From positions 1 to 64,000 of IMG/VR virus record IMGVR_UViG_3300017971_000278: 64,000 nt of DNA. One strand, written 5' to 3'. This document shows positions 10,159-55,186 of this stretch, one piece after another. The translations under genes were made by a program, and so were the position numbers. How positions within the stretch are numbered: the first letter of the stretch is position 1; the number at the start of each line of letters is the position of its first letter. The notes beneath the pieces were generated by a model. That model ran no database searches and was not told the origin of the DNA. It was given only the letters and a program-made list of their open reading frames with translations. The stretch comes from a virus.

Positions 10159-10168
10159 TTAACAAATC

Positions 10169-12688
10169 CTATGATGCTGTTATTTTTAAAGTGCCGCCGC
10201 TGTTCCATACAATACCAGCACCCCCACCAGTCGGATCAACAGTAGGAAGTCCACTCATGACAAGGTTTCCAGTGCTTGTTGATGTATCTAATTTAATATT
10301 GCCACTTGTAGTAGTTTTTAAATGCAGATCACCTTGAGCAACAGTAATGTTAATACTATCGCGAGTTGAAAGCCATGCGTTTTGCCACCCAAGAATAAGT
10401 GGTCTAGAATACGTGGCACCAGTTTTTGTATTAAAAATAAATCTACTATCTGTGGCTCCAGTTTTATCTGGAGAGTAAAATATACCAGTTGGTGTGTGTG
10501 TGCCAAAAGTACCAAGTCCACCAGAATCGTTTAACCAGCCCTCTCCTTCTGTAGTAAAAGAAGTTGCTTTTCCATCGCCAGTATCAGAAAAGAAAATAGC
10601 ATTAGAATATACATTAAAAAAATCAGAACCAACAATACCAGGAGAAGTAAAATACTCTTCAAGGTCTTCAACATTATTAGCAGCTCGTAATGTAGCACCA
10701 CCAACACTATCAATAGTATTTGTTGCTCCGTCAACCCATGGAACACCACGAAACCTAAACTCTCTCATTTGCTCTGGAGCAAAACGTAAAGTTGTTCCTG
10801 GTGCATTACCATCTAGATCTGGTGTGATATCTAAAACATCTGTATGATCAGTTTGACTCATTTTTGCAGGAAGATTAAAAACATCATATGTAGCACTTAC
10901 AGTCCTGCAGCCTAAAAGCATTCTAATATAATTTGGTTCATTTCTTTGACCAAGATCAAATCCTAATACAGCACCATCCCACTTCTCATATGTTCCAGGG
11001 GCAGCTTCGTCATAATAACCTCTTAAAAATAAAGGACCGCTAGTACCAGAATATATAGAAAGAGAACCACATGCTTTTTTATCGTTTGCATAATTTGATC
11101 CATATCTTGTTGTGGCAGCACCAGTGTGTCTCAGGCCAAATCCACTTCTGTACGCTCGACCACCTGTAATAAAATCACCATCGCCCCATAGTCCAGAAAG
11201 TTTTATACATGCATTTTGATCTTCACTAAACCCATCTGTATTGCCACCACCGAAACTTACAGCAAAACTATGATGTGCATATTCTGCAAAATCACTACCA
11301 GGTCTAAGAACAAAACCACCACTTCCATCACCTAAATAATCACCAGTAAGAACAAAATCGCCTCGCATAGCATTACCAGTATTACCAGTTCCGGTACCAT
11401 AGGTGTCGTTAACATCGTTATCCATATAACCACCACGATGTAAATATTGAGAATGTGGATTTACAGGATAATTAGATTCAGTGAACATATATCTTTCAAC
11501 ATCAGCAAGACTATTGTCTATATCACCAGTATACCTATCTTCTAGATTATCGTGAGACAATGGTACAGTATACCCAAGAGTTGGGTTATCAGTTAGACCG
11601 ACATGTTCATTATTCCTAGTCATCTGCATAAGATAATTAATATTTTCTGCCACGCTACTACCAGAAACAATAACTCTATATGAAGAACTACCAACTGTTA
11701 ACCAATCTAATGGAGTTTCAAGCGTAAGAGAATTAGCATCTTTATATTTAAATGTTATTTGTGGTACTACCCTGCCTGTTGATTCTGGGCCGTCCCACAA
11801 TAAACAAAAACCTTCTGGGATCGTATCTCCAGTAGAAAGACCAGCTCCTGTTATAGCAGGTGGTAATCTATATAAAGATGTGTACCCAGGTAGGTATGCC
11901 CAAGTTGAATCGTCAGCATCAGACGATGCCAAAGATCTTTGTCCATATGCATTAACATCAGATGTACGTGTTTGATTCGCGACAGAAGGAAAGGTAAGTG
12001 TGTAGGTTGTTACACTACCAACATCTCCAACTTTAGCTACAGTACAAAGTGTTGACTCTTCCCAGTTTGGTATAACATTTTGTGTACCCCATGGAACGCC
12101 AGGGCCAAACATATTAAGATTACTTATCGTAAGTGTAATAGCAACAGAAGTAACCTCGTATGCAGTGATTACACCTTTGTAATAATCAACATAAAAATCA
12201 CCATCAGCAACAACAAGTTCTGGAGATGCTTTTTCTGAATTTAATACACTGTCTGTATCTCCAGAAACAGAAACATCTGACCATGTTAACGCACTGATAC
12301 TAGAAGACTTACTTGTTTCAGTAAGAGTAGAATCTACCTTAACCAAGGGGTAACCAAGAGTCCATGAGTTTCTATCTGCGGCCAAAACAACATTTATAGA
12401 ACTTACATTCTGTTGGTTCCAACATCCACCAGCTGGAGACATCCAATCAGATGGACCAACACACCTAGCAATACTAGCTTGACTAAGATTCTTTAAGCTT
12501 AATCTATATGCTCCACCAGAACCAGTGTGGCTAGTATAGTCCCAAGGATCTCCAATACCCAATGACATGCGCGAGAATGCGCTATCTGTATGTTTGACAA
12601 GTCCTGTAAATTTTTGTGCTGTTCCCTGTTCTCCTTTTACAAAATCAAAAGGGACCGGGAAAACATCTTGCATTTTATCTTGACTCAT
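10169..12688 (-). CDS. Tail fibre-like protein
   Basis: 839 residues, ATG at 12688 after a strong GGAGG. The protein is Gly-, Ser-, Thr- and Asp-rich with few Lys. The central region (roughly 400-600) is Gly/Asp-rich with alternating aromatics and resembles phage fibre shafts or beta-helical trimers. The last ~80 residues contain short, regular strands (Ile-Asn-Ile-Thr-Val-Ala, Leu-His-Leu-Lys-Thr, Ile-Lys-Leu-Asp-Thr) typical of triple beta-helix fibre ends. The ordered N-terminus (Gln-Asp-Val-Phe-Pro-Val-Pro) may attach to the baseplate. Host-receptor contact is inferred from position and composition, not from a recognised domain. Confidence 0.8.
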   Translation of the reverse strand: MSQDKMQDVFPVPFDFVKGEQGTAQKFTGLVKHTDSAFSRMSLGIGDPWDYTSHTGSGGAYRLSLKNLSQASIARCVGPSDWMSPAGGCWNQQNVSSINVVLAADRNSWTLGYPLVKVDSTLTETSKSSSISALTWSDVSVSGDTDSVLNSEKASPELVVADGDFYVDYYKGVITAYEVTSVAITLTISNLNMFGPGVPWGTQNVIPNWEESTLCTVAKVGDVGSVTTYTLTFPSVANQTRTSDVNAYGQRSLASSDADDSTWAYLPGYTSLYRLPPAITGAGLSTGDTIPEGFCLLWDGPESTGRVVPQITFKYKDANSLTLETPLDWLTVGSSSYRVIVSGSSVAENINYLMQMTRNNEHVGLTDNPTLGYTVPLSHDNLEDRYTGDIDNSLADVERYMFTESNYPVNPHSQYLHRGGYMDNDVNDTYGTGTGNTGNAMRGDFVLTGDYLGDGSGGFVLRPGSDFAEYAHHSFAVSFGGGNTDGFSEDQNACIKLSGLWGDGDFITGGRAYRSGFGLRHTGAATTRYGSNYANDKKACGSLSIYSGTSGPLFLRGYYDEAAPGTYEKWDGAVLGFDLGQRNEPNYIRMLLGCRTVSATYDVFNLPAKMSQTDHTDVLDITPDLDGNAPGTTLRFAPEQMREFRFRGVPWVDGATNTIDSVGGATLRAANNVEDLEEYFTSPGIVGSDFFNVYSNAIFFSDTGDGKATSFTTEGEGWLNDSGGLGTFGTHTPTGIFYSPDKTGATDSRFIFNTKTGATYSRPLILGWQNAWLSTRDSINITVAQGDLHLKTTTSGNIKLDTSTSTGNLVMSGLPTVDPTGGGAGIVWNSGGTLKITAS

Positions 12689-12696
12689 AATACCTC

Positions 12697-15600
12697 CTAC
12701 GGAGTAGTAATCTCAAAAGTAAAACCTAATGTTCTAAAAGGAGCAGATGCCCATTCATCAGTTTCACCTGTTCCACCAACTAGATCAATTACATTGTACG
12801 GTCCAGAGTGTGGATTAATTGTAATAAAAGTTGCTCCGTCTATACCGGAAGCAACAGTGTCGTTGTCACCAACTAACTTCCATCCAAATGGAACTTTCTG
12901 GTCAGACGTATTTATATATTCACCAAGCATATATTCAGGAAGGGATATTCTTCCAATTACCGAGTCACTATATATATATTGATTATAGTATGGACTCCAG
13001 CAGTGTGCTTGGAATGTAACTAGTTTACTGGATACCAACCAGTATCCACCTATTTCATAAGAAGAACCTACTCCACAATCTGGTGCAGAACCAGCAGGAA
13101 CTACAACTCTCCAAAACCCATCATATGGGTCGCTAGCATCATCAATTTGTTCCACTAGATATGGCCGCACAGGGACATAAGCGCCTAAAGAACCAGTTAC
13201 TGGATTAACAGCTGTACTATCAAGAAGTGGACCGGTTGTTTCGTAGTTTATTAGTAGTACATCATCAAATTCTACGTATTCAGTTCCACCTGTCGCAATT
13301 GATGAAGTAAATGCAAGATAGATACCAGTAGCCGTAGCAGTAAAAGTAACATCAAATTGTTCCCAGGCTCCTGTAGTTCCACCAGTCCACAATGTTGTAG
13401 CATCATTTGTAACCAATGGTGCTTGGGTGCCATCACTTCTAGCCCAACCAGTAATTCTGTATTTTACACCAATAGTAGTTACTGCTAATTGATGAGCCTC
13501 CACTTGCACAGGAGGAGTTATGTCTATAGGAGCAGTAATCTTTAAACATTGACTTCCTTCATATGGTGTTATTGTGCTTTTTTCTATAGTTGTACTAGTA
13601 GATGTATCCCAAGCGCCGTTTTGCTCTATAACTGTTATGTTGTCGTATTCACTATATTCGCCAGCAGCATTTGCAAATGTTGCTAACGTAAAGTCTGTAG
13701 CTGTAGCAATAAAAGTAAATGATATATCTTGCCAACTAGAGGAAATTGTTCCAGTCCACATAGTTGACCCATCATGTGTAATTAATGGATACTCATTTCC
13801 AGTACCAGAACTTCTTGCTTTTCCAGAAACTTTATATGATTTTCCAATTGTTAAAACGTTTTGATATGCTGTAGCATATGTATTATGTAATCTTAAACAG
13901 TACGTACTGCCAGCTATGTCAGAAGATTCTCTAGATATCTTTTTAGAACTTAACCAAGAACCATTTTGTTCTAAAACTTCAATGTCGTCAAATTCGACAT
14001 ACTCACTTCCACCTGGGCCAGAACAGGTAAATCCAAGATCCACATCTGTACCACCAGATAAAAATGTTAGATTAAACTGCTCCCAGGTTCCTGTAGTGCC
14101 ACCTGTCCATATTAAACTGCCACTACCAACCCATATTTTTGGGGCTTCAGTCCCATCACTTCTAGCCCATCCAGTAATCCTATATGACTTACCAGAAGTT
14201 AAAACGCTTTGCGTAACAGTACATGTGCCAGCGCCAACATCAGCTGTTAATCTTAAGTGCTGTGTTCCTTCTTGTAGCGGAGGTGTTGTATCTTTTGTTG
14301 GTGTACAGTCCCATTCTGACCAAGCAGCAACTCCAACAGCCTCCATGTCTCCATCAACAATTACATCAGTTAATGTTGCTTCAAAATTACCATCCACAAT
14401 AGGATCTGTAGAGGGAACAGTTTCCATATCACCATCAGTAAGCAGGTTTACAGTACTCATTCCGTACTGTTGATAAACAACTACCTTCCTGCCATTAATA
14501 GGATCACCTTCAGAAACAGTAGCACCATCCCATGCTTCTAAGTCATGCTCAAGAATCATTTCTTGTGACCATTGTGCATAATCAGCAGCATCTTGCACCC
14601 AAGATGGAGTATCGGCTTGATACATAGAAAGTAAAAGAGCATCAAGATCTTCATGACCCATAATAGGATCGTCTTTTAAAATTTGGTATAAATATATTTC
14701 ATCTTCTTTTCCAGTAAGCCCGGTTTCAGAAACACTAAGAATAAGCTCCCTGTCATCTGGATAACTTGCATGAGTAGAATTTCTTACAATAGTTGTATAA
14801 AAACCAAGCTCATCAGAAGACACGGGTGGTTGGTATGTAGTATAAGCGTCACCAGAAGAATCAGTTACAGATATAGAAGCACTATCACCGTCTAAATAAC
14901 CCAAATCTACTGGGCTTATTGTAAATCCAACTTCCACATCACTTACAGGCACACTGCTAGCAGAAAGCACATTGGCCTTTAAAATACCGTAATCAGAACC
15001 TACAGTGATTGGACCATATTCAATTGGAGAAGCAGTCCCTAAAATCTTTTGTTTGTTTATTTCTAATGTAATAGTAGCAGCTTCAAGATCACTGTGTGAT
15101 ATACAAACAAACCCTTGATTCGTAGATTGTGTTACGGGATTAACATCAGCATCTATAGCAACAATACTCTGATCTCTATTAAGTTCTTCGTATTCTATTC
15201 TTGGCACTGTTGTGTAAGCAGCAACAATGTGTGTTCCTGAAGTTGGAACTCCACTTCCAGCGGCACTACCAAAATAAACAATACCTAAATCTTTATCTAA
15301 AAAGTATCTTTTGGTATTCGGATAAGACCAGCTTCCAGTAATTAAATCCCACCAAGAATCCATTCTAGTCCATTCTTCCCATGTTGTACTATTAGCAACA
15401 TAAAGATGAAATGAACTATCAGCAAGAACAGGAAAATTCTCTAAATAAAACACCTGATAGTCTGAGCCGGTGGACAAACCAAGATACTCACATGCAGCTA
15501 GATCATTATATTGTGTTGGTATAACACCATACTGTTCTGAGTAGTCACGATTAAACCAAAGTCTTGTTGTGCCATCTATGGTGTTGCTATCAACTACAAA

Positions 15601-16224
15601 TTCTCTTTTGGTAGTATCTACATTGGCCCATGTAATAGTGCCCAAATCAGAAACTGTTTCTAATTGAGTTCCGCTTGAGTATATCCCGGTAAATCTGTAT
15701 CGTTGATTAATGCGTGTTTTATAAGTATTCTCTTTTAAAGAATCACGCTTAAAAGTAGCAGCAAGGATTGGCGTTGTGATATCTGGGGTGGTAGAAAGTT
15801 CAATATAATTTCTACCGTCGCGATTATCGCTTGTATTGATGTACTGAACTACGCTGTTGTCGCTGTAATAAAAATAATCAACATTATAACGATAGTAAAA
15901 ACCATTACTTACAAACGGGTACCAGTGTTTTTCGCCGTCTTGCAATACCTCAGTAAAGTCACTAACATAAAGATCATCTAAATTTGCTGCGCCAACTCCA
16001 GAGCGAAAATAACTAGAAGCACTAACACCTTGTATAGATGGATCTGATAATCTCGGAAGAGATGGAAGTTTAAGATCAAAAGGACTTCCCCATCTCTTTA
16101 TATCAAATGTCCAACCTTCAGGTATATCAAGAGGGTGTTCGAATCCAACATATGGTCTCATACTGGCTTCTCTGACAACTATTTGTTCAGTAGTTACTTT
16201 AATACTTGATCTAGTAAGCGTCAT
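12697..16224 (-). CDS. Tail fibre/appendage protein with three CBM-like jelly-roll repeats
   Basis: 1,175 residues, ATG at 16224 overlapping the upstream stop by one base, with GGGGTGAA upstream. The N-terminal half is beta-rich and carries many Tyr/Trp/Asp turns. Residues ~420-510 look Ig-like. From about residue 620 to 1000 there are three tandem copies of a ~120-residue unit: a Lys-Ser-Tyr-(Arg/Lys)-(Ile/Val) strand, a Gly-(Trp/Lys)-Ala-Arg-Ser turn, a Trp-Thr-Gly, a Trp-Glu-Gln/Trp-Gln-Asp strand, and a Glu-Tyr-x-Glu-(Phe/Tyr)-Asp end. That layout matches CBM_4_9-type carbohydrate-binding jelly rolls. Binding of host surface polysaccharide is inferred. The C-terminal ~170 residues are distinct. 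Confidence 0.85.
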   Translation of the reverse strand: MTLTRSSIKVTTEQIVVREASMRPYVGFEHPLDIPEGWTFDIKRWGSPFDLKLPSLPRLSDPSIQGVSASSYFRSGVGAANLDDLYVSDFTEVLQDGEKHWYPFVSNGFYYRYNVDYFYYSDNSVVQYINTSDNRDGRNYIELSTTPDITTPILAATFKRDSLKENTYKTRINQRYRFTGIYSSGTQLETVSDLGTITWANVDTTKREFVVDSNTIDGTTRLWFNRDYSEQYGVIPTQYNDLAACEYLGLSTGSDYQVFYLENFPVLADSSFHLYVANSTTWEEWTRMDSWWDLITGSWSYPNTKRYFLDKDLGIVYFGSAAGSGVPTSGTHIVAAYTTVPRIEYEELNRDQSIVAIDADVNPVTQSTNQGFVCISHSDLEAATITLEINKQKILGTASPIEYGPITVGSDYGILKANVLSASSVPVSDVEVGFTISPVDLGYLDGDSASISVTDSSGDAYTTYQPPVSSDELGFYTTIVRNSTHASYPDDRELILSVSETGLTGKEDEIYLYQILKDDPIMGHEDLDALLLSMYQADTPSWVQDAADYAQWSQEMILEHDLEAWDGATVSEGDPINGRKVVVYQQYGMSTVNLLTDGDMETVPSTDPIVDGNFEATLTDVIVDGDMEAVGVAAWSEWDCTPTKDTTPPLQEGTQHLRLTADVGAGTCTVTQSVLTSGKSYRITGWARSDGTEAPKIWVGSGSLIWTGGTTGTWEQFNLTFLSGGTDVDLGFTCSGPGGSEYVEFDDIEVLEQNGSWLSSKKISRESSDIAGSTYCLRLHNTYATAYQNVLTIGKSYKVSGKARSSGTGNEYPLITHDGSTMWTGTISSSWQDISFTFIATATDFTLATFANAAGEYSEYDNITVIEQNGAWDTSTSTTIEKSTITPYEGSQCLKITAPIDITPPVQVEAHQLAVTTIGVKYRITGWARSDGTQAPLVTNDATTLWTGGTTGAWEQFDVTFTATATGIYLAFTSSIATGGTEYVEFDDVLLINYETTGPLLDSTAVNPVTGSLGAYVPVRPYLVEQIDDASDPYDGFWRVVVPAGSAPDCGVGSSYEIGGYWLVSSKLVTFQAHCWSPYYNQYIYSDSVIGRISLPEYMLGEYINTSDQKVPFGWKLVGDNDTVASGIDGATFITINPHSGPYNVIDLVGGTGETDEWASAPFRTLGFTFEITTP
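13225..14350 (-). repeat. Three tandem CBM-like protein repeats
   Basis: Within the 1,175-residue fibre protein, units at about residues 625-755, 755-872 and 872-1000 share the Ala-Arg-Ser-(Asp/Ser)-Gly-Thr turn, a Trp-Thr-Gly, and an acidic Tyr-Asp end. Units one and three are most alike (both have Ile-Thr-Gly-Trp-Ala-Arg-Ser-Asp-Gly-Thr). Unit two has drifted (Val-Ser-Gly-Lys-Ala-Arg). Intragenic duplication is the simplest reading. Boundaries are approximate. Confidence 0.75.
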
Positions 16225-27736: not shown

Positions 27737-30700
27737 TTAAAGCCTCTCGTGAATTTTTCTCGCCAAAGAATTAGCATCTAATATAGATCTGTCATCTTTA
27801 GTTCTTATGTTCACACTGCCTCCGTTAGAGAGTTGTCGTGCGCTCCTCATTAGATCATCAGAGGAAGAATTCAGGTCATCAGTACGCATTCTTATATTAG
27901 CATGCGAGGTTCTTCTTCCGCCACCCATATCATATATTTTAGGTGACATATTCATACCAGGACTTGGTGGATTCATAGGATGACCGCCAACATAATCTGG
28001 ATTCTCAAAATCTACATTTCTTCCACTATTTGCGCCTTCTGGATTTCTCATAACACCAGCAGTACTAGGGGCCATAAGCATAATGCCAGCGGCAACCCCA
28101 AGTCCAGCAAGTAAAGGTTTCTTTGCTCTGCCAGCTGCACTAAGTAAACTTCTGGCTTTTACTTGCCCTCTCATAACAGCTCTTGATGCACGCATAGTGA
28201 ATTTGTTAATGTTACCAGCATTAGCTTGCATCATAGTTTTTGTAACATCTACAGATCCAGTGCGGCGAGAATGAAACATTCTAACAGCCTCTTCTAACGC
28301 AATGCCTCCACCATGTCTACCTCTAGATGCAGCATTAGCTTTCATTGCAGTATCTATTTCTTTGCTTACCGAGTCATAAGAACTAATTGCAGTCTCTGCC
28401 CATTTGCGTGGTTCATATTTTAAACTATGTTGAGTAACTCTTCCGCTAGCGTCAGTCATGGTTCCAGTAATAGTTCTTGGTTTGTCACCCATAATGGTTT
28501 TAATAACACCCTCTAGTCTGGCAGTACCTTTCTCTCCACCCTCATCAACAGCTTGTGTAATAGATTTATAAAAGTCACCTTCTAAAACACCATGTTTGCC
28601 ACCAATAGCAGCTTCTTCAAGATGCCAGAATAACTCAGCCATAGGTCTATATTGTTCAGCTTTGCTATATTGAACACCAAGTTTAAGTTTCTGTAGTGCT
28701 ATATTTACTTCACCAGTTGTGGTTTTTGCGGTAGATAATTTTCTATAGCCTTCTACCATGGGGTCTAACCCAGCACCCTTGCTAACGTTACCCTCAACCA
28801 TATCTTTCATGGCATAGTGATTAAACAAATACTGTGTATACCCTTCTCTAATATCTTTGTTCATAGCACGACGAGCTTGGTCAGAGGTTCTTCTATCTGA
28901 GATTAGCGATAATGTAAATTGATCCTTATCAAAGTCACCCTTCATACCAACCATTTCAGACACGTCAACATCTAAAACTCTGCTATCTTGAAATGATATT
29001 TTTCCAAATTTAGTAGGCGCGGCCAACATACCATCGACCATATTTGCATCTTTCTTAAAATTAACAAACTGAAATGACTCAGGCCCAGATGTAGGATGTC
29101 TCCATATGCCACCAGTAATAGATTCGCCTTTTCTAAAAGCTTCTCTTTGTTGTTGTAAGAATTGTATTTGGTCATCTGCTTGTGCGCGGCTTATTAGGTC
29201 ACCAAACATATCTTCACCAGTTGCACTTGAGATTCTGAACACACCAGGATCTTTAGCAAAAGTTTTTCTTTGGCCAGTAAGATATTTTGATCCAATAATC
29301 TTGCCTCTGGCTGAAGCTTGTGACTCTGCTTGTTGTACTACAGATGTTCTAAGTCCAGCAGCAGCCTCTTCTAGTTGCTCTGTAGTTATTTTGCCCATTT
29401 CTGCATCACGCATAGCACGTCTAAAACCACCTAGTTCTTTTACTAGTGGAGTGTCTATAAGTTCTCCTTTTGCCATTTTTGCTTGCATAAGTTCTGGAGC
29501 TTCTAATGTTCCAGGTATATACATAACATCAGACCCACCAAGAGCACCTAGTTTTCTACCAAGTTTTACGTACCTGCCTTCTGATTGTGCAATATCTCCA
29601 GACATAAAAGATTCTAATGGTCTACCTTGTCTGGCTAATTTATCAAACAACGACTCTTGACCTAATACAGTTGCAGCCATTTTGTCAGCAGCAGCAAGTT
29701 CACCTTTGCCAGCAATTCTTGTAGTTAGTTCAGCAGCATAACGCTGTCCTATTTCACCCTTCATAGACAATGCTCTAAATCCACTAGGCTCAAATGTTCC
29801 CCATTTGCCGGACCCACCTTCTGTTGCAATGTCACCAAGCATACCTTTGGTCAGCCCAACAACACCAGGTGAACGAGCAATATGACCAGCTTCTCTCCAT
29901 GACAATGTTCCAGATTTTGCAAAGTCAGACAATGTATCTCTACTCATAAGACCAAATGTAAGTTGCATTTCGTCTCTATTGAACTGCCAATTCTTTGCTA
30001 ATCCAACAAGATTTCTTTGTATTTGTGTGTGTGCTGAACTACCAGCAGACCTAACTAGTTGTTTAACATTCATAGCAGCAGTGGGGTTTTCTAAAAATGC
30101 TATTACTTCTGGTGTTGGTTGCATTGAACCAGATTGTATTTTTTGTGCAACAAACATAGAGGTAGCTTCAATTTGTTGGGTAAGTAGTGCCATTTTGTTT
30201 CTACCAACAAGCTTACCAGAGAACACAGCTTCTATTGGTTGGCCAGCTATATTAACTCTATCTCCCATTCCAGCGGCTTTAAGTACACCTCTCATTTTTG
30301 TTTCGTCGGCAGCAGAAGCCATATATTTACTTTCTTCGGAAAAATACTTCCACATCTCTGTAGAAGAAAGTTTTCTTCTTTCCCTAAGGTAAACATTTGC
30401 TTCGTTCTTGCCAGTTAATTCTGCACCAATAGCAGTAACACCAGCGTTACTATCTAATCCAGTTAAAATATCCTTACCCGTCCCTCGTTCTATACCGACA
30501 AATCCTTCTTTAGCACCTATATTTAAAGGTACTGTTTCGCCTATCTTTTTACCTTCAAGACTACTAGCAAGATTTTGGTTAACCATAAAACCTTTATCTA
30601 AAGCTACCTTCTTTTGCATGATACGTTCATATTCCATCATACCAGTAACACTCTTAGAAATAACTCCTTCTTCGGCAGCAAGCATTTGATTAAGTGCTCT

Positions 30701-32140
30701 GGACTGATAACCAATACCATATCCACTACGTGAAGGTTTTGCATAGAAAGTTGTTAATTGTGGTGCTGAATATGCCTGTCCAGACAATGGCGACTTGTCA
30801 CCATACATAAATTGCTTATACATTGGACCTTGTATTTTTCTATCTAACCTGTTGTAGTATTGTCCAAATAATCCTTTAAACCCTGTTGCTCTAGATTTTG
30901 CTTCTCCTGTAATTCCCCATTCTGGACGAACAAATTGTGTTGGTCTATCACTTGGAGATGCAAATGCACCAAGTGGACCAAAAAGATCTTCAGCTAAGTT
31001 TCTTGTTGATAATGTGCCTTTGCTCGCTGCGCCAGGAGATGTAAAAGGATATAGACCTTTCCCAAAAAGATTAATGATATCGTCCTCTTCCATTGCTCCA
31101 TACATAACAGCTTCTTGTGTTGTAAGTCTAGCTCTGGCCATTCCGCCAGAAGTCATATAAGGACTTGCCCATATTGCAGCAGCTCTATTGCCAGAGTCTC
31201 GCATATTCATATGATCAATAAGCCTTTGATTGGCATCTAAAACATTTTGTTTTAAATGTGCTTTTGTTTTCGACTGCTGTATGGCATCTATTAAACTTTC
31301 TTCGTACATTTCTGGGAAAGACATTTTTCTGCCAGTAACATCATACCCTTGTCTTGTCACATATCTTGTATTAAGGTTCTTACTACTGTATGTAACTCCA
31401 GTTTGTGCCAATGGCATAGCAGCTAATCTATCTTCACCAACTTGTCCAATCATCATAGGGGTACTTACAGGCTTCCCAGCAACAACATCATCTATATTTT
31501 GATACGACCATTCTATTGCTCCCTCAAGACCAAACGCATCGGCAGCTCTCTTTTGAATTCTAAGAGCATGTTCTCTAGCCTTTGCTGGTAATAAATTTAT
31601 ATCAGAAAAACCTTTACGAGCTGCGCCTCCAAAGCCACCTGGGGATATAGCACTCATAACACTTTGTTCAGTAGATAATTTTTGTATATTTGCTTGAAAA
31701 GAACTTATGTCTCCAGAGTATTTTTGAACAGCAGCAAGTCCAGCTTTATATGCGCCAAGAGCAGAAGTTTGTCTATTAATAGATGACATTGCACCCAGCG
31801 CTTGTTTATGTGTTAAAGCACCACCAGACATTAAAGATTGATATGTAGAAGCGTGGATGTTTGCTATTGATTCAACAGCACCAGCTCTTCTTTCAAAAGC
31901 AGATACACTAGCCTGTACCGCTTCGTCAAAAATATCAGCACCTGGCATACTATTTTTAAGAGAATTAAAACCAGTAAGACTTTGTGACTGTGCAACTGTT
32001 TGGCCGATAATATCTGTATTTGCAGTGTTCCATGCTTCTTGAAAAAGTTTTTTGTTTTTTAAAAAAGCATATCCTGCGCCGCCAGTAAAGGCAGTTCCAG
32101 CAGCTAGATTCCAAGGCATATTTTTATCATCATCAAACAT
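27737..32140 (-). CDS. Giant virion protein with two-barrel RNA polymerase-like motifs
   Basis: 1,467 residues, ATG at 32140 after GGGAG. It occupies a tape-measure position between a 1,390-residue protein and the hub. Motifs match two-double-psi-barrel RNA polymerases (beta/beta', YonO, crAss-like phage virion polymerase) in order: a Glu-Glu-Gly-Val-Ile-Ser entry near residue 488; Lys643-x-x-Gly-Arg-Asn-Lys649, like the beta-subunit Lys pair; Arg1014-His-Pro-Thr, like Asn-Arg-Ala-Pro-Thr; Gly-Asp1069-Phe-Asp1071-Lys-Asp1073-Gln, like Ala-Asp-Phe-Asp-Gly-Asp-Gln; then Thr-Gly-Glu-Val-Asn (~1142) and Ala-Ile-Gly-Gly-Lys1182-His-Gly. The C-terminus has one hydrophobic segment (~1345-1362) and a Gly/Ser/Asn-rich tail. 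The motifs are seen; activity and injection are inferred. It could instead be an inactive relative or a plain tape measure. Confidence 0.75.
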   Translation of the reverse strand: MFDDDKNMPWNLAAGTAFTGGAGYAFLKNKKLFQEAWNTANTDIIGQTVAQSQSLTGFNSLKNSMPGADIFDEAVQASVSAFERRAGAVESIANIHASTYQSLMSGGALTHKQALGAMSSINRQTSALGAYKAGLAAVQKYSGDISSFQANIQKLSTEQSVMSAISPGGFGGAARKGFSDINLLPAKAREHALRIQKRAADAFGLEGAIEWSYQNIDDVVAGKPVSTPMMIGQVGEDRLAAMPLAQTGVTYSSKNLNTRYVTRQGYDVTGRKMSFPEMYEESLIDAIQQSKTKAHLKQNVLDANQRLIDHMNMRDSGNRAAAIWASPYMTSGGMARARLTTQEAVMYGAMEEDDIINLFGKGLYPFTSPGAASKGTLSTRNLAEDLFGPLGAFASPSDRPTQFVRPEWGITGEAKSRATGFKGLFGQYYNRLDRKIQGPMYKQFMYGDKSPLSGQAYSAPQLTTFYAKPSRSGYGIGYQSRALNQMLAAEEGVISKSVTGMMEYERIMQKKVALDKGFMVNQNLASSLEGKKIGETVPLNIGAKEGFVGIERGTGKDILTGLDSNAGVTAIGAELTGKNEANVYLRERRKLSSTEMWKYFSEESKYMASAADETKMRGVLKAAGMGDRVNIAGQPIEAVFSGKLVGRNKMALLTQQIEATSMFVAQKIQSGSMQPTPEVIAFLENPTAAMNVKQLVRSAGSSAHTQIQRNLVGLAKNWQFNRDEMQLTFGLMSRDTLSDFAKSGTLSWREAGHIARSPGVVGLTKGMLGDIATEGGSGKWGTFEPSGFRALSMKGEIGQRYAAELTTRIAGKGELAAADKMAATVLGQESLFDKLARQGRPLESFMSGDIAQSEGRYVKLGRKLGALGGSDVMYIPGTLEAPELMQAKMAKGELIDTPLVKELGGFRRAMRDAEMGKITTEQLEEAAAGLRTSVVQQAESQASARGKIIGSKYLTGQRKTFAKDPGVFRISSATGEDMFGDLISRAQADDQIQFLQQQREAFRKGESITGGIWRHPTSGPESFQFVNFKKDANMVDGMLAAPTKFGKISFQDSRVLDVDVSEMVGMKGDFDKDQFTLSLISDRRTSDQARRAMNKDIREGYTQYLFNHYAMKDMVEGNVSKGAGLDPMVEGYRKLSTAKTTTGEVNIALQKLKLGVQYSKAEQYRPMAELFWHLEEAAIGGKHGVLEGDFYKSITQAVDEGGEKGTARLEGVIKTIMGDKPRTITGTMTDASGRVTQHSLKYEPRKWAETAISSYDSVSKEIDTAMKANAASRGRHGGGIALEEAVRMFHSRRTGSVDVTKTMMQANAGNINKFTMRASRAVMRGQVKARSLLSAAGRAKKPLLAGLGVAAGIMLMAPSTAGVMRNPEGANSGRNVDFENPDYVGGHPMNPPSPGMNMSPKIYDMGGGRRTSHANIRMRTDDLNSSSDDLMRSARQLSNGGSVNIRTKDDRSILDANSLARKIHERL

Positions 32141-37851: not shown

Positions 37852-38769
37852 TTATACTAGGTTTCTTCCAATAAAACTATACGTTTCAAAAATTGGCTGA
37901 CCTGAAACCTCTATTGTTTGAGTTTGGCCAGTAAAGGATAGTTCTAAAATTTTCTTTACGGTATGATTTGCTGGTTGGCGGGACATATCACCGTAAACTA
38001 TCCAAACATCCATTGGTGGATATTGGTCTGCACGTCTATGACTAAAAACTTGTTCATCTGATATTGCATCTTGCCAAGGTAGATTTTTAGAAAATAGTTT
38101 ATCGCGCACTGTTGGGTTGGCTTTATCAGAACCATACCATATTGCATCTTCAAAAGCTTCTGCCCAGTCCTCAAATGCATTATCTGGTAACGCACCTAAT
38201 TCTTTCCAGAATCTATTGAAACTTTTATTTTGTCTGTTGTTATCAGCGCTTTGTTGCCAATCAAACATCTGCTCTACATTTGCCTCCAGTACCCTTTTAT
38301 TACTAGCTGCTTTTGCAGCTGCTGTCAAGGTATTTCCTGCTTTTGTAGTGTCATAGTAATTGACTTTATTGCCATTAGAATCTAAAGAGTATCTTGGAGA
38401 GGTCCATATTTCATTATGTGCCTTATTCCAATCTTCTTCTGTTTGTATACGGCTGCTACTAATGTTAGCTACTTTCTCTTGAAACCTTTGCATTGGCCAT
38501 AACAAATAACCTGCTTCTTTAAAAGCTATTGTGAGTGTGCCTTGAACTATGACATGTCCGTCAGCAACAAAACTATAATATTGACTTGAGTAACCATATA
38601 CTGGAGTTTTAGTTTGACCAACACTAAAATTTATAGCTGCGGCGCTATCAATTAAAACATCGCCCATCATGATACCGATCTGAGAACCAGAGTACCAGTC
38701 GTACTCATAGGCGTTATTACCTATATTATTAGGTGTAATAAAATTACCGTTTTGATCTCTTAGTGGCAT
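37852..38769 (-). CDS. Tail tube-like paralogue (divergent)
   Basis: 305 residues, ATG at 38769 overlapping the upstream stop by one base. Residues ~45-85 carry the tube-family pattern in drifted form: Val-Gly-Gln-Thr-Lys-Thr-Pro-Val-Tyr-Gly-Tyr, then Gly-His-Val-Ile-Val-Gln-Gly-Thr-Leu-Thr-Ile-Ala-Phe. This aligns with the Lys-Ala-Pro-Ile-Tyr / Ile-Ala-Gly-Ser-Leu region of the tube gene at 39754. A long helical insertion (~90-210) separates this from the C-terminal strands. It could be a tube-initiator or tail-completion ring. The tube-fold assignment is inference from the motif. Confidence 0.65.
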   Translation of the reverse strand: MPLRDQNGNFITPNNIGNNAYEYDWYSGSQIGIMMGDVLIDSAAAINFSVGQTKTPVYGYSSQYYSFVADGHVIVQGTLTIAFKEAGYLLWPMQRFQEKVANISSSRIQTEEDWNKAHNEIWTSPRYSLDSNGNKVNYYDTTKAGNTLTAAAKAASNKRVLEANVEQMFDWQQSADNNRQNKSFNRFWKELGALPDNAFEDWAEAFEDAIWYGSDKANPTVRDKLFSKNLPWQDAISDEQVFSHRRADQYPPMDVWIVYGDMSRQPANHTVKKILELSFTGQTQTIEVSGQPIFETYSFIGRNLV

Positions 38770-39692
38770 TATATAAACTGATTCCTTCTATATATGTGAT
38801 TGTTAAGAAAGTTTTTATGTCTTGATAACTTATCTGCAGTCATTGTCCACTCTTCTTTTATACCTTGACCGTCAATTGCACGCTTGTCAACAATTCGCAT
38901 AGGATCTAAATCCCTTGCTACATACTGTACTACATTTTCAGAAAAAATGTCTTCAATTGAAAAAGTGGAACCTTCTGATACAAACTCAACGCCCCATATT
39001 CCCATATGTGATAAAGCGCCATATTCATTTGCAAAAACCAAACTTATATCAAGAGGTGGCAACTGATCAGGTAAATTAGTTGTGTAAGTATATTTATCAT
39101 GATCACTAGTGCCTGTATTATAAAATTTAAGATTAAGAGCTAATATTTCATGTAGTACATGTTGGTGGAAAACGGTAAAAATCATACTACCAGCAATTGT
39201 TCTTGGACCGCGAGTATAGGCTCTAGGATAAACAGACCCCAGTGTTCTAACTGGAGCTTTATCTCTATGTATTTGCCAGGAAATAGTTTGTAGTTCTGCG
39301 AGCACTTTAGATGTAGGTATTTTAGAAAGCTGTTCTAACTCTTCCTCCATGTTTGTTAAAGACGTGCTGTATTGTTCTAAGTTTTCTTGTAGTATTGCAA
39401 CAGTATTAGTTTTGTTTGCATATTCTTGGCTGGCCATAATACGATCAAGTTCTGCAGCAGATTCATTAAAAAGCCTTTGGTCTTCCGCTATATTACTTTT
39501 TATCATATCTAAAAAAGCTTTATCTGGATGCGGATAATGAACCACTACTTTTATATCCGCACCGGAGAAACTACCAAACCCAAGGTAGTCAGATACATTA
39601 GCATAAGACGCAACCTCATCAGGATCGCCTGCAATTTTTAATGCTTGAGTGGGTGGTATGATAGTACCAGCTTTGGTTCCAATATTCGCCAT
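38769..39692 (-). CDS. Tail tube-like paralogue with coiled-coil insertion
   Basis: 307 residues, ATG at 39692. Residues ~41-50 (Ser-Phe-Ser-Gly-Ala-Asp-Ile-Lys-Val-Val) match the tube gene's Ser-Phe-Ser-Gly-Val-Asp-Ile. Residues ~143-170 match the next tube motif (Arg-Asp-Lys-Ala-Pro-Val-Arg-Thr-Leu-Gly-Ser, then Pro-Arg-Ala-Tyr, then Thr-Ile-Ala-Gly-Ser-Met). Between them, residues ~58-128 are a charged helical insertion not present in the tube protein. It looks like a tube paralogue adapted as a distal ring or hub adaptor. It is transcribed after the tube terminator, so probably at a lower level. Confidence 0.75.
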   Translation of the reverse strand: MANIGTKAGTIIPPTQALKIAGDPDEVASYANVSDYLGFGSFSGADIKVVVHYPHPDKAFLDMIKSNIAEDQRLFNESAAELDRIMASQEYANKTNTVAILQENLEQYSTSLTNMEEELEQLSKIPTSKVLAELQTISWQIHRDKAPVRTLGSVYPRAYTRGPRTIAGSMIFTVFHQHVLHEILALNLKFYNTGTSDHDKYTYTTNLPDQLPPLDISLVFANEYGALSHMGIWGVEFVSEGSTFSIEDIFSENVVQYVARDLDPMRIVDKRAIDGQGIKEEWTMTADKLSRHKNFLNNHIYRRNQFI

Positions 39693-39710
39693 ATCTATTC
39701 CTAACTGATA

Positions 39711-39738
39711 AAGAAAGGGCTAGATCTCTCTAGCCCTT
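39711..39738 (-). terminator. Rho-independent terminator after the tail tube gene
   Basis: On the minus strand a perfect 10-bp stem (AAGGGCTAGA / TCTAGCCCTT, 39738-39729 and 39724-39715) closes a four-base loop and is followed by TCTTTAT. It lies between the tube stop and the next gene. A partial terminator would raise tube mRNA relative to downstream genes. Confidence 0.75.
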
Positions 39739-39753
39739 ATATTAGGTGTGTGA

Positions 39754-40425
39754 TTAACCTGCCATGTCTGGGTGAAGCCCCTGGCTTACCCAAGGAATGA
39801 GACCATGTGCAATATAGGTATAACTATGTTCAGATACAATATCATCAATAGAAACACCGTAGCCAGAATTCATTAATTCCAGGCCGAGAATTTTCATAAT
39901 AGCGAGTGCGCCGTATTCGTTCGCAGCAGAAAGAACAACATCAAACGGAGGAATCTGATCTGCATACCAAGGTAATGCTTTCTCTTGATCAGAGCCTGCA
40001 GAAGTAAGATTTTGTTCTTGGTTTCCTATCGCGGCTCCAGGCGTATTTTGACTAGTACCAGAAGAAGTTACAGTGGTATCAGATACGGAAATCTGTTCTC
40101 CTGCTTTGTATTCTGGACGAAGATCATCTTGGTCAGACAAGAAATATAATCTACGACTTTCTTCTTTTGGGTCTATGTTTGCCAATTCATACATAATTGG
40201 TTCATGGTCAAACTGAATAAATACTAAAGAACCTGCAATTGCACGCTTACCACGAGCAAATGCTCTAGGATCTGCACTACCCATCGTATAGATAGGAGCT
40301 TTCTCACGTGACACTTGATAACTGATGCCCTGGATACTACCAATAGTGTTAGCACCAATAACAGCAGTAATGTCTACGCCGCTGAAGCTATTATAGCCTC
40401 TTGTAAATGCGGATTGTAATGCCAT
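39754..40425 (-). CDS. Tail tube protein
   Basis: 223 residues, ATG at 40425 with a strong GGAGG. Residues ~36-67 show a tube-type pattern: Ser-Tyr-Gln-Val-Ser-Arg-Glu-Lys-Ala-Pro-Ile-Tyr, then Pro-Arg-Ala-Phe-Ala-Arg-Gly, then Ala-Ile-Ala-Gly-Ser-Leu-Val-Phe. Tube proteins stack in hexameric rings inside the sheath and polymerise from the baseplate. It is immediately downstream of the sheath gene, the usual pair in myoviruses, and is followed by a terminator, consistent with high copy number. Two further genes downstream share its motif. Confidence 0.88.
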   Translation of the reverse strand: MALQSAFTRGYNSFSGVDITAVIGANTIGSIQGISYQVSREKAPIYTMGSADPRAFARGKRAIAGSLVFIQFDHEPIMYELANIDPKEESRRLYFLSDQDDLRPEYKAGEQISVSDTTVTSSGTSQNTPGAAIGNQEQNLTSAGSDQEKALPWYADQIPPFDVVLSAANEYGALAIMKILGLELMNSGYGVSIDDIVSEHSYTYIAHGLIPWVSQGLHPDMAG

Positions 40426-40440
40426 TGTTCATTAACCTCC

Positions 40441-42330
40441 TTATGAGCCAGATTTGCTTAGTGCAATTGTTATATTAATCTGACGTACTTCAAATGCTGG
40501 AATCAACGTTAAGCTGACTACAACAACGCCCTGTACTTCTTGTTGAGGAGTTTGAGTGACACTAAACCCCTTATAATCTTGCAGATAACCGTCTGTCTTT
40601 GCAGGCAGAAGGACCTGGTTTTCAACTGCAGTTTCCATCGATGTTCTTTTGGCACTACCAGTACCTTCACCAATAAATGGATCAAGAACTAAACGACAAC
40701 CATCAATAATAGCCTTAACTATACGAACAGTAGATAACCGTCTCCAGTCAGAGTTAGGCATTGTAGCAGTAGGAGCATCTGTGATTTTAACACCAGTTCC
40801 TTTTTTGCGGAGCGTAACATATCCAGCACCAGTAAGGTCATCATACACACCAAGTTTATAATTATAAATTATTGATGCGCCACTAACCGACTTGTTGGTC
40901 GGTGCAGAATCCGGTGGAAGACCTACATAAAAACCTGCATAAGATGCAGCATACGGTCCGAGATAACCAGCATTGTACCAGTTGTTTCTCAAGAAAACAG
41001 TATCAGCGACAACACTAATATACTTGCCAAGATCAACAGGAATATCATTATCGTCTACTTGCTCTGTACCATCCATGAACTCAGAATCAGTAAGAATAAA
41101 ACCTCCACCGAAAATACCAGAGCGATGAGAACTCATACCAACCATAAACTTATTACCAAGTAATCCACTACCGTCATCACCAGAAGAAGCAATAGATTCT
41201 AACCCAGTAGTTGTATCTAATGTCCACGTAGGGGCAGTTCCATACCAGCGTGCTCTGTCGCGAAGACTATTAGAAGCAGGCGGAAGAGTTCCAATGGTAC
41301 CAGTTGCATCAACAATATCAGTGCTGTAATCATAAAGAAAACGTCCAAGCTGATATGCGAAGTTAACCTCATGAAAGTCTGCAGTACTAAGACTAGTTCC
41401 ATCTATTTTTGCACTTGCAGAAGAAGAACCAACGGCTGGATTCGGAAAGATTTCAGCAACTCCGTCACCATTAATATCCCACCAAAAGTAATACTCTCCT
41501 TCGTATTCTTCTACATAAACCTTACCTAAAGAGTCAACGTCAATACCAAGCCGATAAGAACCAGCAGTCGGATATGTGTTTGTGCCAGGCAACACTGGAG
41601 TAACAGCACCAATAAAGTGTCCTTGATCTACAACATTATAGTCATCAAGAAAAGTATCCATAGGTACAATTACGTCAAATTCTTCTGCCAACAGAAACTT
41701 ATAGGCTTTATAAAGCTCTTCGTAAAGTTCCATTCTGGACAAACTAAGACCATCAGTTCCAGCGGTAAAACTAGTACCAGCATAAGTTGAAGGATCAACA
41801 GCATCCAAGTCGATAAAAGCAGACGCAGATCCAATGTCAACTCCGCCGCCAACAGCGCGATAACCACTTACGGTTACCTCAAATAATTCAATTGGTGAAG
41901 TTTGGCTGTTATCATAAACAACCAGATTGTCACTATTTCTACGCACAACAAGACGATCCTCAGAATCATCATAGTACATAGAGTAGTTGCCACCAGCGTC
42001 AGCATCTTGTTCTACTGTTTCAATAATATAACCAGCAACACCAGTAGAGTCACCAACACCAGATAGTTTAGCAGCAGTAGAACCAATCCTAAACAGAGCA
42101 ACTTCTTCTGCTCCTGTTTTGAGTGCTTCCCACATACCGCGCATTAATGTTCCTTCGTTACCAAATTCCGACCTAGCCTGTGTGGTTGTAGGCACGAGAT
42201 AAAACGAATCCCCTGCGCCTTTAGCTGACGTACCAACTATCAAAACACGGGGTGCTCTAGATCCAGCTTCTGGAGCCAAATTACCATCATTTTTATAGGC
42301 TTTTACACCTGGAAGATTAGCAAATACCAT
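40441..42330 (-). CDS. Tail sheath protein
   Basis: 629 residues, ATG at 42330 with AGGAGGGG upstream. The N-terminus (Pro-Gly-Val-Lys-Ala-Tyr, then Pro-Arg-Val-Leu-Ile-Val-Gly-Thr-Ser) is typical of contractile sheath proteins. The C-terminal ~130 residues show the conserved domain: Arg-Leu-Ser-Thr-Val-Arg-Ile, a long helix with Cys-Arg-Leu-Val-Leu, Gly-Tyr-Leu-Gln-Asp-Tyr, and final strands Ile-Pro-Ala-Phe-Glu-Val-Arg-Gln-Ile-Asn-Ile. A large beta-rich region sits between, as in long sheath proteins. Contraction of the assembled sheath drives the tube into the host envelope. Its presence fixes the morphology as myovirus. Confidence 0.95.
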   Translation of the reverse strand: MVFANLPGVKAYKNDGNLAPEAGSRAPRVLIVGTSAKGAGDSFYLVPTTTQARSEFGNEGTLMRGMWEALKTGAEEVALFRIGSTAAKLSGVGDSTGVAGYIIETVEQDADAGGNYSMYYDDSEDRLVVRRNSDNLVVYDNSQTSPIELFEVTVSGYRAVGGGVDIGSASAFIDLDAVDPSTYAGTSFTAGTDGLSLSRMELYEELYKAYKFLLAEEFDVIVPMDTFLDDYNVVDQGHFIGAVTPVLPGTNTYPTAGSYRLGIDVDSLGKVYVEEYEGEYYFWWDINGDGVAEIFPNPAVGSSSASAKIDGTSLSTADFHEVNFAYQLGRFLYDYSTDIVDATGTIGTLPPASNSLRDRARWYGTAPTWTLDTTTGLESIASSGDDGSGLLGNKFMVGMSSHRSGIFGGGFILTDSEFMDGTEQVDDNDIPVDLGKYISVVADTVFLRNNWYNAGYLGPYAASYAGFYVGLPPDSAPTNKSVSGASIIYNYKLGVYDDLTGAGYVTLRKKGTGVKITDAPTATMPNSDWRRLSTVRIVKAIIDGCRLVLDPFIGEGTGSAKRTSMETAVENQVLLPAKTDGYLQDYKGFSVTQTPQQEVQGVVVVSLTLIPAFEVRQINITIALSKSGS

Positions 42331-46330: not shown

Positions 46331-47584
46331 TTACAGACCAGAGATTGCCGTAGTAGTATCAAGCTCGCTGATACTTCCGCTAGAAGAAATAGTTGCAGTA
46401 AGTGGCATAGCAATTTCATTAGCTTTAACAGGCACATTACGAAGAACACCAATGCCAAGACCGTCTTCATAAATAGCAAAACCATAACGCTCTTTGAGCT
46501 TCATCTTGCTACTATCAGTAGACATATCTTCCCATTTGTCCATCACTACGTCGTGGTCAACAACAAGCGCACCGAGGTTATTAGAATCAAAGATCATAAT
46601 ATCAGCAGTGTTATTGTTAACGTTAAACGGAGCAAAAGGAGTAACGAGAACGTTCAGCGGGTGCGGAAAGTAATCCGGAATAACTGCGGCAGAATTCAGA
46701 TTCTGATCAAGTTCAGAAACAGAAGTAGGAGTCTCAGTTGCAGCATTTCCACTAGGAGTAAACTGTCCATATCCACTTGGCAGACCTTGGCCATTCTGCG
46801 AAGAAGCAGACCATGGGTTACCAGACTTAGGCATATTATGCCTCTGGAACCATTGACCGTTGCCAGTGTTTTTAACGATAGTCTGAAGCAGAGGATCAGC
46901 CATCCACATAGACCAGGTTAAGGGGTGCATCATAAGAGTGTTAGGAATAAAACCCTGCATCATAATATGAGCATACGCCTTCAAAAGGTCTTCCATCCGA
47001 CAAGAACCGTTTCCGGCACCAGAGAGGGAGCGACCAGTGCATGTACCATACACAGAAGATGTTGGGGTAATATTATCAAAAAGGGTAACACCCATGGCAG
47101 TAATAAACTGCATACCTTTTTGTTCTTTTTTACGAGCAAGCGCCGTTCTTGCGGCCCGGATGTGCATATTGATAACGTCAAACTGAGAGTAGCGTTGCAT
47201 CTCTTCAGTAATTTTAAAAGCAAGACCAGTCTTTGCTACGTTAATCGTCACGGTTCCAGGTGCAATCTGCAGTTGCTGTTCTGGGTAGGTTTGGTTTTCA
47301 CCAAGGTCATAGGCGACCAATGAACCAATTGTCGGGAAAGTAATTCTAGCAGCAGCAGAGTACTGTACCCTATCCAAGAGAGCGGGGATGATCATCATAG
47401 GCTCTACAGGTTCGCGCATAATATCTTCAACAACTTTTGGCATCCAAGCAGCTGCATTAGGTGTAGCAATTGCATCATCATAAGTCAATTGTTTTTGAGA
47501 AGCCGAATTAAAGCCGTTATTCATCCAAGTGTCTCGGAATAGTTCATAACTGTCGCCGAAGGTTGTTTTGTTCTTAGTATTCAT
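46331..47584 (-). CDS. Major capsid protein (HK97-fold)
   Basis: 417 residues, ATG at 47584 after a strong GAAGGAGG. It shows the HK97-fold layout: an N-terminal arm, then a spine region with Thr-Phe-Pro-Thr-Ile-Gly, Tyr-Pro-Glu-Gln, and Val-Ala-Lys-Thr-Gly-Leu-Ala-Phe-Lys-Ile-Thr. A long helix follows (Arg-Ala-Ala-Arg-Thr-Ala-Leu-Ala-Arg-Lys), and near the C-terminus Tyr-Gly-Phe-Ala-Ile-Tyr-Glu-Asp. Such capsomers form the icosahedral shell after scaffold removal. A strong terminator directly follows, and the gene looks more GC-rich by eye than neighbours, both fitting high expression. Protease/scaffold two genes upstream supports the assignment. Confidence 0.93.
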   Translation of the reverse strand: MNTKNKTTFGDSYELFRDTWMNNGFNSASQKQLTYDDAIATPNAAAWMPKVVEDIMREPVEPMMIIPALLDRVQYSAAARITFPTIGSLVAYDLGENQTYPEQQLQIAPGTVTINVAKTGLAFKITEEMQRYSQFDVINMHIRAARTALARKKEQKGMQFITAMGVTLFDNITPTSSVYGTCTGRSLSGAGNGSCRMEDLLKAYAHIMMQGFIPNTLMMHPLTWSMWMADPLLQTIVKNTGNGQWFQRHNMPKSGNPWSASSQNGQGLPSGYGQFTPSGNAATETPTSVSELDQNLNSAAVIPDYFPHPLNVLVTPFAPFNVNNNTADIMIFDSNNLGALVVDHDVVMDKWEDMSTDSSKMKLKERYGFAIYEDGLGIGVLRNVPVKANEIAMPLTATISSSGSISELDTTTAISGL

Positions 47585-53208: not shown

Positions 53209-55186
53209 TACCGCCAGTTCTCCTCTCATATTCAGCTATAAATTCTCTGGCACTTGACAAGTCTTCAGCTGTCATATCTTGCAAACAATTCTTAATAATA
53301 ATACCTGATTCGACAGTTTTTTGCTTAACTTCATTTGTTTTTGCGCTGTTATCAATAGTTCCAATCCCACTATTAATTCCACTGTTACTGTTTTCTTTTG
53401 AGCCAACTGTTTGTTTTGTATCTATTTTCTTATTACCGTTGGGTGGAATAACTCTTATATCACCATTATCTAGTACTTCAAATTGTGTAGCGCTTTGTTT
53501 GTTCATCGTGTCTTCTAGGATAAATTTCATTTGTTGCACATCTAAATTACTATTAGTGCCACACTTTAGGCCATTTTTAGAAATTGCTTTAAGGATAGAT
53601 TTTATTACTAAAATCAACTGAATAATGCGAGACCTAATAACAGAACTATCTGATTTTTTGCTCATCCACCCAAAGTCAGTACCTAAAAGGTCATAGATCA
53701 TTTGAATAGCATAATCAAACCAATCTTGAACATACCTAATAGCACCCTGAGAAATGTTGCGCATCTGAACTATAGAATTAACAAGTGGTTCTGGATCAAA
53801 ATATCTTTTAGCTTCTTTTACAGTGCTTTGTTTTTCTGGAGGATTGTTCTCATTGCCTATAGAAAATTCTTTGCTCCATTTTTCTGATTGTGGAATATCA
53901 TCTTTACTCCACCTTGTGCCGTCACGTGGATTACCACGCTTTAAAGGCGGTGGAACTTTGTTTCTTTTGTTTCTATCTTTTCGTTTAAGATCGGCCCACT
54001 TCTGATCTCTTTGTTCTCTTTCTGCTGTAGATATAGATGGTTTCACAGATTCTTTCATTTCATCAACAGCAAGATCTGTTTCTTCTTCTGGCCACTCTGG
54101 TATTGTTGGATTATATTTTTGACCATCAGGAGTATTGAATCGCTCCATCTCACCATTGGCCCATTGTCTTTCTGTGGGTTCTACGCCAGCGCCAACATCA
54201 CTAGAAAAGTTTTTATGTGTTGGAAGTGCAACACCAATATCTGCTTCTGCAGAAACAGATGCCTGGCTGAATGGGATCTTTGCGTTTTGTGCTAGTATAA
54301 TAACTTCATTAATATGATCTACAACACAAAGCATTGGAGCAATAAGCATTTGTACTAGTTTATCTAACCATTGTGCTAGAGCATCTAAAAATGGGCTTAA
54401 TATTGCGCCGACAAGATTAATAATGAAATCAACATTAAATTTAACATCTAAGTTTAATTTTGCTAGATAATTTGTTAATAGCGCTAACATTGCAAGAAGA
54501 TCTTGTGGACACAATCCAGACAACAAATTCAATAGTTCACAAATATCTAAATACATTCCAGGATCTTTAAAAAGATCACGTATCTGATCTAGGATATCTG
54601 TGCGCATTTTAATATTTAAAAGATGAACCTCTAAAAGATCACCATCTGGAAGCAACCCATCAAGATCCAATAATCTATCAAAACAAGGTATACATTCTGT
54701 AAGAAGCTTTCCTACTTGCTCACCTTTTGTTTTTGCAGATGTGTCAGACCCAAAAATCTTTCTATAGTCAAAATCTTGTTCTCTAGATCGTAATCCATTC
54801 ATAAAAGCGTCTGGATTATCCATAGAGTTATTCCAGAAGTTCAATCTATCATTTGCTTTATTATTGGCTGTTGTGTATGCAGGGTCTTCTTTCTTAACTC
54901 CAGAAGCCTGATGCATACCTGGATAATACCCCATCTGCTCTCTTACTCGTGTAGAAAAATTCCTAGTGGAGTAAACATCTTTATAGTGATAAGCAAGGGC
55001 GTAATCTTCTTCTGCCCAATTGGCAGCTTCTACTTCAAAAGCCCTAACTATTAAAGCATAATCTTGTTGTGCCAACGGATTCTTTTTGTTAACTCTAAGT
55101 TTAACTTTTACTGTTTGACCATCAGAAGAAGCAATAACTTTCTTCTCGTTGGTGCGCACAACATTTTTATCATCAGTAAAACCCAT
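53201..55186 (-). CDS. Large virion structural protein, unknown family
   Basis: 661 residues, ATG at 55186, overlapping the upstream stop by one base. The N-terminal ~150 residues are charged. Residues ~160-310 are hydrophobic and helical (Leu-Leu-Ser-Gly-Leu-Cys-Pro-Gln-Asp, then Val-Gly-Ala-Ile-Leu-Ser-Pro-Phe, then Met-Leu-Ile-Ala-Pro-Met-Leu-Cys), and may pack into a membrane or a buried core. The C-terminal third is charged with Asn- and Lys-rich linkers. It sits between small terminase-proximal genes and the portal. I believe similar proteins occur in other large phages, but I cannot name the family. Confidence 0.75.
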   Translation of the reverse strand: MGFTDDKNVVRTNEKKVIASSDGQTVKVKLRVNKKNPLAQQDYALIVRAFEVEAANWAEEDYALAYHYKDVYSTRNFSTRVREQMGYYPGMHQASGVKKEDPAYTTANNKANDRLNFWNNSMDNPDAFMNGLRSREQDFDYRKIFGSDTSAKTKGEQVGKLLTECIPCFDRLLDLDGLLPDGDLLEVHLLNIKMRTDILDQIRDLFKDPGMYLDICELLNLLSGLCPQDLLAMLALLTNYLAKLNLDVKFNVDFIINLVGAILSPFLDALAQWLDKLVQMLIAPMLCVVDHINEVIILAQNAKIPFSQASVSAEADIGVALPTHKNFSSDVGAGVEPTERQWANGEMERFNTPDGQKYNPTIPEWPEEETDLAVDEMKESVKPSISTAEREQRDQKWADLKRKDRNKRNKVPPPLKRGNPRDGTRWSKDDIPQSEKWSKEFSIGNENNPPEKQSTVKEAKRYFDPEPLVNSIVQMRNISQGAIRYVQDWFDYAIQMIYDLLGTDFGWMSKKSDSSVIRSRIIQLILVIKSILKAISKNGLKCGTNSNLDVQQMKFILEDTMNKQSATQFEVLDNGDIRVIPPNGNKKIDTKQTVGSKENSNSGINSGIGTIDNSAKTNEVKQKTVESGIIIKNCLQDMTAEDLSSAREFIAEYERRTGGNG

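Follow-up and report, generated by a model that had tools for sequence, protein, structure and literature searches.

A predicted single-chain two-barrel RNA polymerase encoded next to the tail hub gene of a contractile-tailed phage

What is the role of a 1467-residue phage protein whose gene is lodged between that of a tape-measure-like protein and that of the tail hub? The question is raised by the IMG/VR virus record IMGVR_UViG_3300017971_000278 (72,247 bases), of which positions 1 to 64,000 were analysed; this stretch of 64,000 nucleotides is called the window below. The gene, P0001, is a single open reading frame on the minus strand (27737..32140, ATG at 32140, stop at 27737), with gaps of 3 bases on either side, the tape-measure-like gene lying upstream and the hub gene downstream. 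We refer to its product, and to its counterparts at the same place in other phages, as the slot protein; features located within the gene are all on the minus strand. A sequence-only reading of the window had placed the gene correctly, though the strand has to be added, and had proposed a two-barrel RNA polymerase. Single-chain two-barrel enzymes are known in phages, namely YonO, phi14:2 gp66, and gp96 and gp64 of P23-45. Structure search, the set of active-site residues and profile alignment to rpoB and rpoC now support the existence of such an enzyme between the tape-measure-like and hub genes. Most probably, it resides in the tail, is delivered with the DNA and starts early transcription.

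Retrieving relatives by means of the suspected catalytic motif would create its own conservation, so that a motif-free route was needed. The first relatives were found with peptide patterns taken from elsewhere in the slot protein and near the motif; the hub sequence, with its much stronger conservation, then served as bait, and at each locus found the gene in front of the hub was inspected. The set aligned comprises 34 slot proteins, that of the window plus 33 from as many other contigs, and 24 of the 34 were fetched only via the neighbouring hub gene, which makes the conservation of the motif real and far beyond chance. Thus, at least 33 other viral genome fragments have the same gene in the same place, and the order tape-measure-like gene, slot gene, hub gene is kept in full-length relatives. 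Every full-length slot protein at the hub-found loci carries a DxDxD motif in its last third, often in canonical forms such as GDYDGD (L072, L115), ADFDAD (L068) or GDFDAD (L075, L102). The proteins vary in size, those of L101, L103, L105 and L106 reaching 1758-1820 residues against 1420-1630 in the others; L103, L105 and L106 clearly have a longer stretch of core between the barrels.

The strings quoted in the sequence-only reading are all literally present (K643-LVGRN-K649, W1013-RHPT-1017, G1068-DFDKDQ-1074, QARRAM and AIGGK1182HG), and alignment with the relatives sorts them. The predicted metal-binding motif D1069-F-D1071-K-D1073 (28922..28936), proposed as the beta-prime aspartate triad, keeps its three aspartates in 34 of 34 slot proteins and aligns with the ADFDGDQ of rpoC; among the genes of the window, a scan finds no other DxDxD with F, Y or H at the second position. 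Arg1014-His-Pro-Thr likewise stands as a beta-prime element. It is part of R1014-H-P-T-x6-Q1024 (29069..29101), assigned to barrel A as the counterpart of NRxPTLHRxxIQ on the basis of conservation and of its register with rpoC: R1014 is present in all 34 proteins, P1016 in 33 and Q1024 in 28, the glutamine falling at +10 from R1014, as in the beta-prime element, while the asparagine of the beta-prime NR is not conserved. By contrast, Lys643 and Lys649, taken earlier for the beta-type lysine pair, are ruled out in that role by their conservation, in 13 and 7 proteins of the 34. The conserved pair is found instead in K598-x-F-S-x3-K605 (30326..30349), assigned to barrel B, with K598 in 32 proteins and K605 in 31, two more having Arg. 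In the segment K643-LVG-R647 that follows barrel B (30200..30214), it is position 647 that is R or K in 28 of 34, and R647 is possibly, on a weak resemblance judged by eye, the counterpart of beta R1106. Downstream of barrel A, the element E1175-E-A-A-I-G-G-K1182-H1183 (28592..28618), which overlaps the Ala-Ile-x-x-Lys-His-Gly singled out by the sequence-only reading, is conserved as well (E1175 29/34, I1179 26/34, K1182 29/34 plus 4 Arg, H1183 26/34) and may be regarded as a candidate trigger-loop element, whereas the Gln-Ala-Arg-Arg-Ala-Met stretch after the triad is retained only among close relatives. In a 30-row alignment of the core with a mean identity of 25%, R1014 and the three aspartates account for four of a mere seven invariant columns.

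Comparison with the cellular enzymes, using unsupervised hhalign of the core profile against E. coli rpoC and rpoB, agrees with these assignments. In the best rpoC alignment, R1014-H-P-T falls on N-R-A-P-T and GDFDKDQ on ADFDGDQ, while in that with rpoB, K598 falls on beta K1065 and K605 on K1073; among 104 long proteins tested, rpoC came out best outside the family. With the same program, gp96 and gp64 of P23-45 and the slot protein of Bacillus phage KLEB27-3 align best at DxDxD, and that of Acinetobacter phage ME3 aligns best at the region of the lysine pair and second best at DxDxD.

The polymerase core, residues 488-1235 (28436..30679), was modelled with AlphaFold2 and the model searched with Foldseek. 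An earlier AlphaFold2 model made with 11 close relatives was poor (predicted local distance difference test, pLDDT, 54.5; predicted template modelling score, pTM, 0.32), and yet RNA polymerases already made up most of its weak PDB matches. Because diverged relatives found through the hub were added, the model from the 30-row alignment improved to a mean pLDDT of 83.2 and a pTM of 0.70. In this model, strands gather where the two barrels are expected, K598 and K605 sit on strands, and DxDxD occupies a loop before a strand. Searched with Foldseek against 350,542 PDB chains, it gave 59 matches at E<=1e-3 (best E 1.9e-5), and the 50 listed are all largest subunits of RNA polymerases (beta-prime, RPA1, RPB1), with the PhiKZ and AR9 phage enzymes (8que_A, 7s01_d) among them. 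Among the viral models, second place is taken by an ME3 protein whose halves add up to the length of ME3_36, and phage RNA polymerases come next. The matches comprise DNA-directed RNA polymerases of phages and a phage protein of the RNA-dependent RNA polymerase (RdRP) type; weaker matches of the beta class concern subunits of a poxvirus and of Moumouvirus, a mimivirus relative (E about 2e-3 and 6e-2). The fold search on the core model thus returns the beta-prime class among the PDB matches listed and both classes among the viral ones, and this means that both barrels match. The predicted two-barrel fold and its active-site set can be taken as well supported.

Several observations pull in the other direction. 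Single- and two-sequence searches with the slot protein found nothing in Pfam, in PHROGs or among PDB sequences. The hhalign scores are individually weak (P 0.011 for rpoC and 0.35 for rpoB), and Foldseek template modelling scores are low, about 0.15 to the PDB chains, which is due to the local nature of the match and to differing insertions. Finally, on two contigs, L070 (94,548 bases) and L071 (67,196 bases), a homologue of the tape-measure-like protein precedes the hub and a polymerase-like protein is found nowhere, so that the slot gene is not obligatory for a tail. These two contigs provide a natural comparison for the role of the slot protein.

Beyond the core, the protein has features that point to its location. 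Residues 1343-1361 (28058..28114) form a single membrane-like hydrophobic segment with the highest 19-residue hydropathy of the protein (1.71), and the full-length relatives have a similar one at a distance of 109-184 residues from the C-terminus. It is followed by a C-terminal tail, ...DDRS-L---LA-KIHERL (27740..27820), conserved across full-length slot proteins, which likely attaches to the hub. The hydrophobic segment, the conserved tail and the position against the hub together suggest a protein of the tail lumen that is delivered early. We infer catalysis, late expression, tail location, injection and the use of early-gene promoters along the following lines. The slot protein would be a polymerase with double-psi beta-barrels, folded like the cellular beta and beta-prime subunits, fused to an N-terminal region, a C-terminal membrane-like helix and a tail facing the hub. 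Made late, together with the tail, it would be placed inside the tail tube, flanked by the tape measure and the hub, and be delivered ahead of or with the DNA. D1069, D1071 and D1073 would bind Mg and K598 and K605 act as the beta-type lysines, and the delivered enzyme would transcribe the first phage genes while the genome enters.

Might the fold have been kept without the function? A polymerase-derived structural protein of the tail lumen would fit a structural slot and a conserved tail possibly facing the hub, and catalysis is something that we infer here. However, the aspartate triad and R1014 are present in 34 of 34 proteins, and K598 in 32, on a background of 25% mean column identity in the core; a scaffold would not keep exactly these residues, and L070 and L071 have a tail module without any slot protein. 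We consider this explanation unlikely.

Less probable still is a two-barrel polymerase making another product, be it a DNA polymerase or primase resembling PolD or an RNA-templated enzyme. Two-barrel folds do serve PolD and RNA-dependent RNA polymerases (PMC7824862, PMC10770324), and the viral structure matches include a phage protein that bears the name RdRP; yet PolD is absent from the 50 PDB matches listed, all of which are largest subunits of DNA-dependent RNA polymerases, the relatives' contigs, which may be incomplete, have no RdRP Pfam match, and the known tail example makes RNA (PMC10770324). We hold in equally low regard the idea of an active RNA polymerase that is expressed late from the tail operon and used in the cell without being packaged. 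In the phage of the window the slot protein is presumed to be in the virion, and the idea draws on this, but it would leave aside a position against the hub gene that is fixed in very diverged phages, the hydrophobic segment and the conserved tail; moreover, the KLEB27-3 protein of the same slot is annotated 'structural protein', albeit by annotation alone. The reading that we favour is still a polymerase that travels in the tail and is delivered along with the DNA. Nine relatives' contigs, which may be incomplete, show no beta or beta-prime Pfam match that would reveal a second polymerase.

The neighbourhood is that of a complete structural module, baseplate genes included. The hub, P0002 (21341..27733, minus strand), is a gp27-type protein of 2130 residues with an M15 peptidase domain (Pfam Peptidase_M15_2, 3.2e-10) and resembles hub or baseplate proteins of KLEB27-3 and ME3. 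The tape-measure-like P0003 (32144..36316, minus strand, 1390 residues), without a match in family searches, is so designated for its position and size, its homologue standing directly before the hub in L070. As a consequence, the slot protein, which the sequence-only reading put in the tape-measure position, does adjoin the hub but is not the sole tape-measure candidate, since this separate gene precedes it and is kept in L070 and L071. A tail sheath gene (40441..42330, minus strand; PHROG 16991 tail sheath, 7.3e-64) shows that the tail is contractile, and genes for the terminase (56442-58376), the portal (51037-53229) and the major head protein (46331-47584) are present. Three adjacent genes at 37852-40425 match phrog_9206 'major head protein', for which 46331-47584 is the better candidate; they are perhaps tail-tube or decoration paralogues. 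Within the baseplate and fibre region (7582-16224), three large proteins of 858, 839 and 1175 residues have no convincing PHROG match. Neither the slot protein nor the core of the hub has a relative in GTDB genomes, so that no host or prophage was found.

If this account is right, the two-barrel polymerase carried in a tail, of which a single case has been described in P23-45, widens into a broad class that occupies the same genomic address in 34 diverged viral records, and a simple rule for finding such enzymes would be to inspect the gene before the hub. What appears to be new is a tail-slot polymerase gene that stands alone, is widespread but unannotated in phages with contractile tails, and shows conservation across a very wide range. 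In the literature we found no description of a stand-alone polymerase between a tape-measure-like gene and a hub, but subscription journals were mostly uncovered and the novelty is provisional. With at least 33 further fragments having the slot gene, many phages may bring their transcription enzyme inside the tail. This would explain how large contractile-tailed phages could begin transcription before any new protein is made, turn the injection of these enzymes and their driving of DNA entry into testable questions, and add a very diverged branch to the family of all cellular RNA polymerases.

How does this compare with known systems? The beta-prime barrel of the PhiKZ and AR9 enzymes matches the slot-protein model, but each of these enzymes is made up of several chains, and that of the PhiKZ virion belongs to the head (PMC13282480). 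Gp66 of the crAss-like phage phi14:2 (6VR4) is a single-chain two-barrel virion enzyme, as the slot protein presumably is; it differs in belonging to another phage order, without such a hub neighbour and with a negligible sequence match. Closer in gene position are ME3_36, annotated as hypothetical, with KFFSVGSK and GGDHDQDQ, and KLEB27-3 gp034, annotated as structural, with NRYPT and ADYDGD, both encoded in the slot before the hub and both too diverged for the family profile in a hidden Markov model search. No paper on KLEB27-3 was found. Its slot protein is longer, with an exonuclease-like region near the start, seen by eye; a segment of this DnaQ-like type, again by eye, occurs in KLEB27-3 gp034 (L003:3055-10359) and MTATph1 CDS0027 (L004:3904-7833), with a mutual match of 24%, and the examined part of the MTATph1 tail region has no DxDxD. 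Elsewhere in ME3 (L134:16000-21850, record positions 221000-226849), ME3_309 (798 residues) terminates immediately behind an RNPS motif, SDVDGDHS lies in a frame further downstream, and between the two sits ME3_308, endonuclease-like by eye. The region has the look of a second two-barrel polymerase gene interrupted by an inserted one, and the viral structure matches also include an ME3 protein of 798 residues.

For tail proteins of ME3, the annotation states homology to Bacillus phage 0305phi8-36, where gp146 lies directly before the hub gp147 and was assigned as tape measure mainly from its length (PMC2147016). We liken gp146 to the slot protein by gene position, from its description only; gp99 of the same phage, an RNAi-type RNA polymerase, is encoded in the right arm and not in the tail (PMC2147016). 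There is perhaps an even chance that a hub-docked single-chain two-barrel polymerase in the tail tube is a common strategy among large phages with contractile tails, overlooked because the proteins match no family, that some 'tape measures' such as gp146 are polymerases of this kind, and that they may help pull the genome in as they transcribe it. The closest precedent is the Thermus siphophage P23-45, where one tail gene encodes both the tape measure and, as a fusion to it, gp96, a single-chain two-barrel polymerase that has DFDGD, transcribes the pre-early genes and was proposed to act as DNA passes (PMC10770324). The sequence-only reading had presented a polymerase in a tail gene as a new arrangement; P23-45 came before it, and the novelty narrows to a stand-alone gene in a contractile tail. 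In P23-45 the polymerase is located N-terminally in a tape measure of 5,002 residues, in a long non-contractile tail (PMC10770324), whereas in the phage of the window the tape-measure-like protein and the predicted polymerase have separate genes 3 bases apart, in a phage with a contractile tail, and the slot protein aligns with the P23-45 polymerase at nothing beyond DxDxD.

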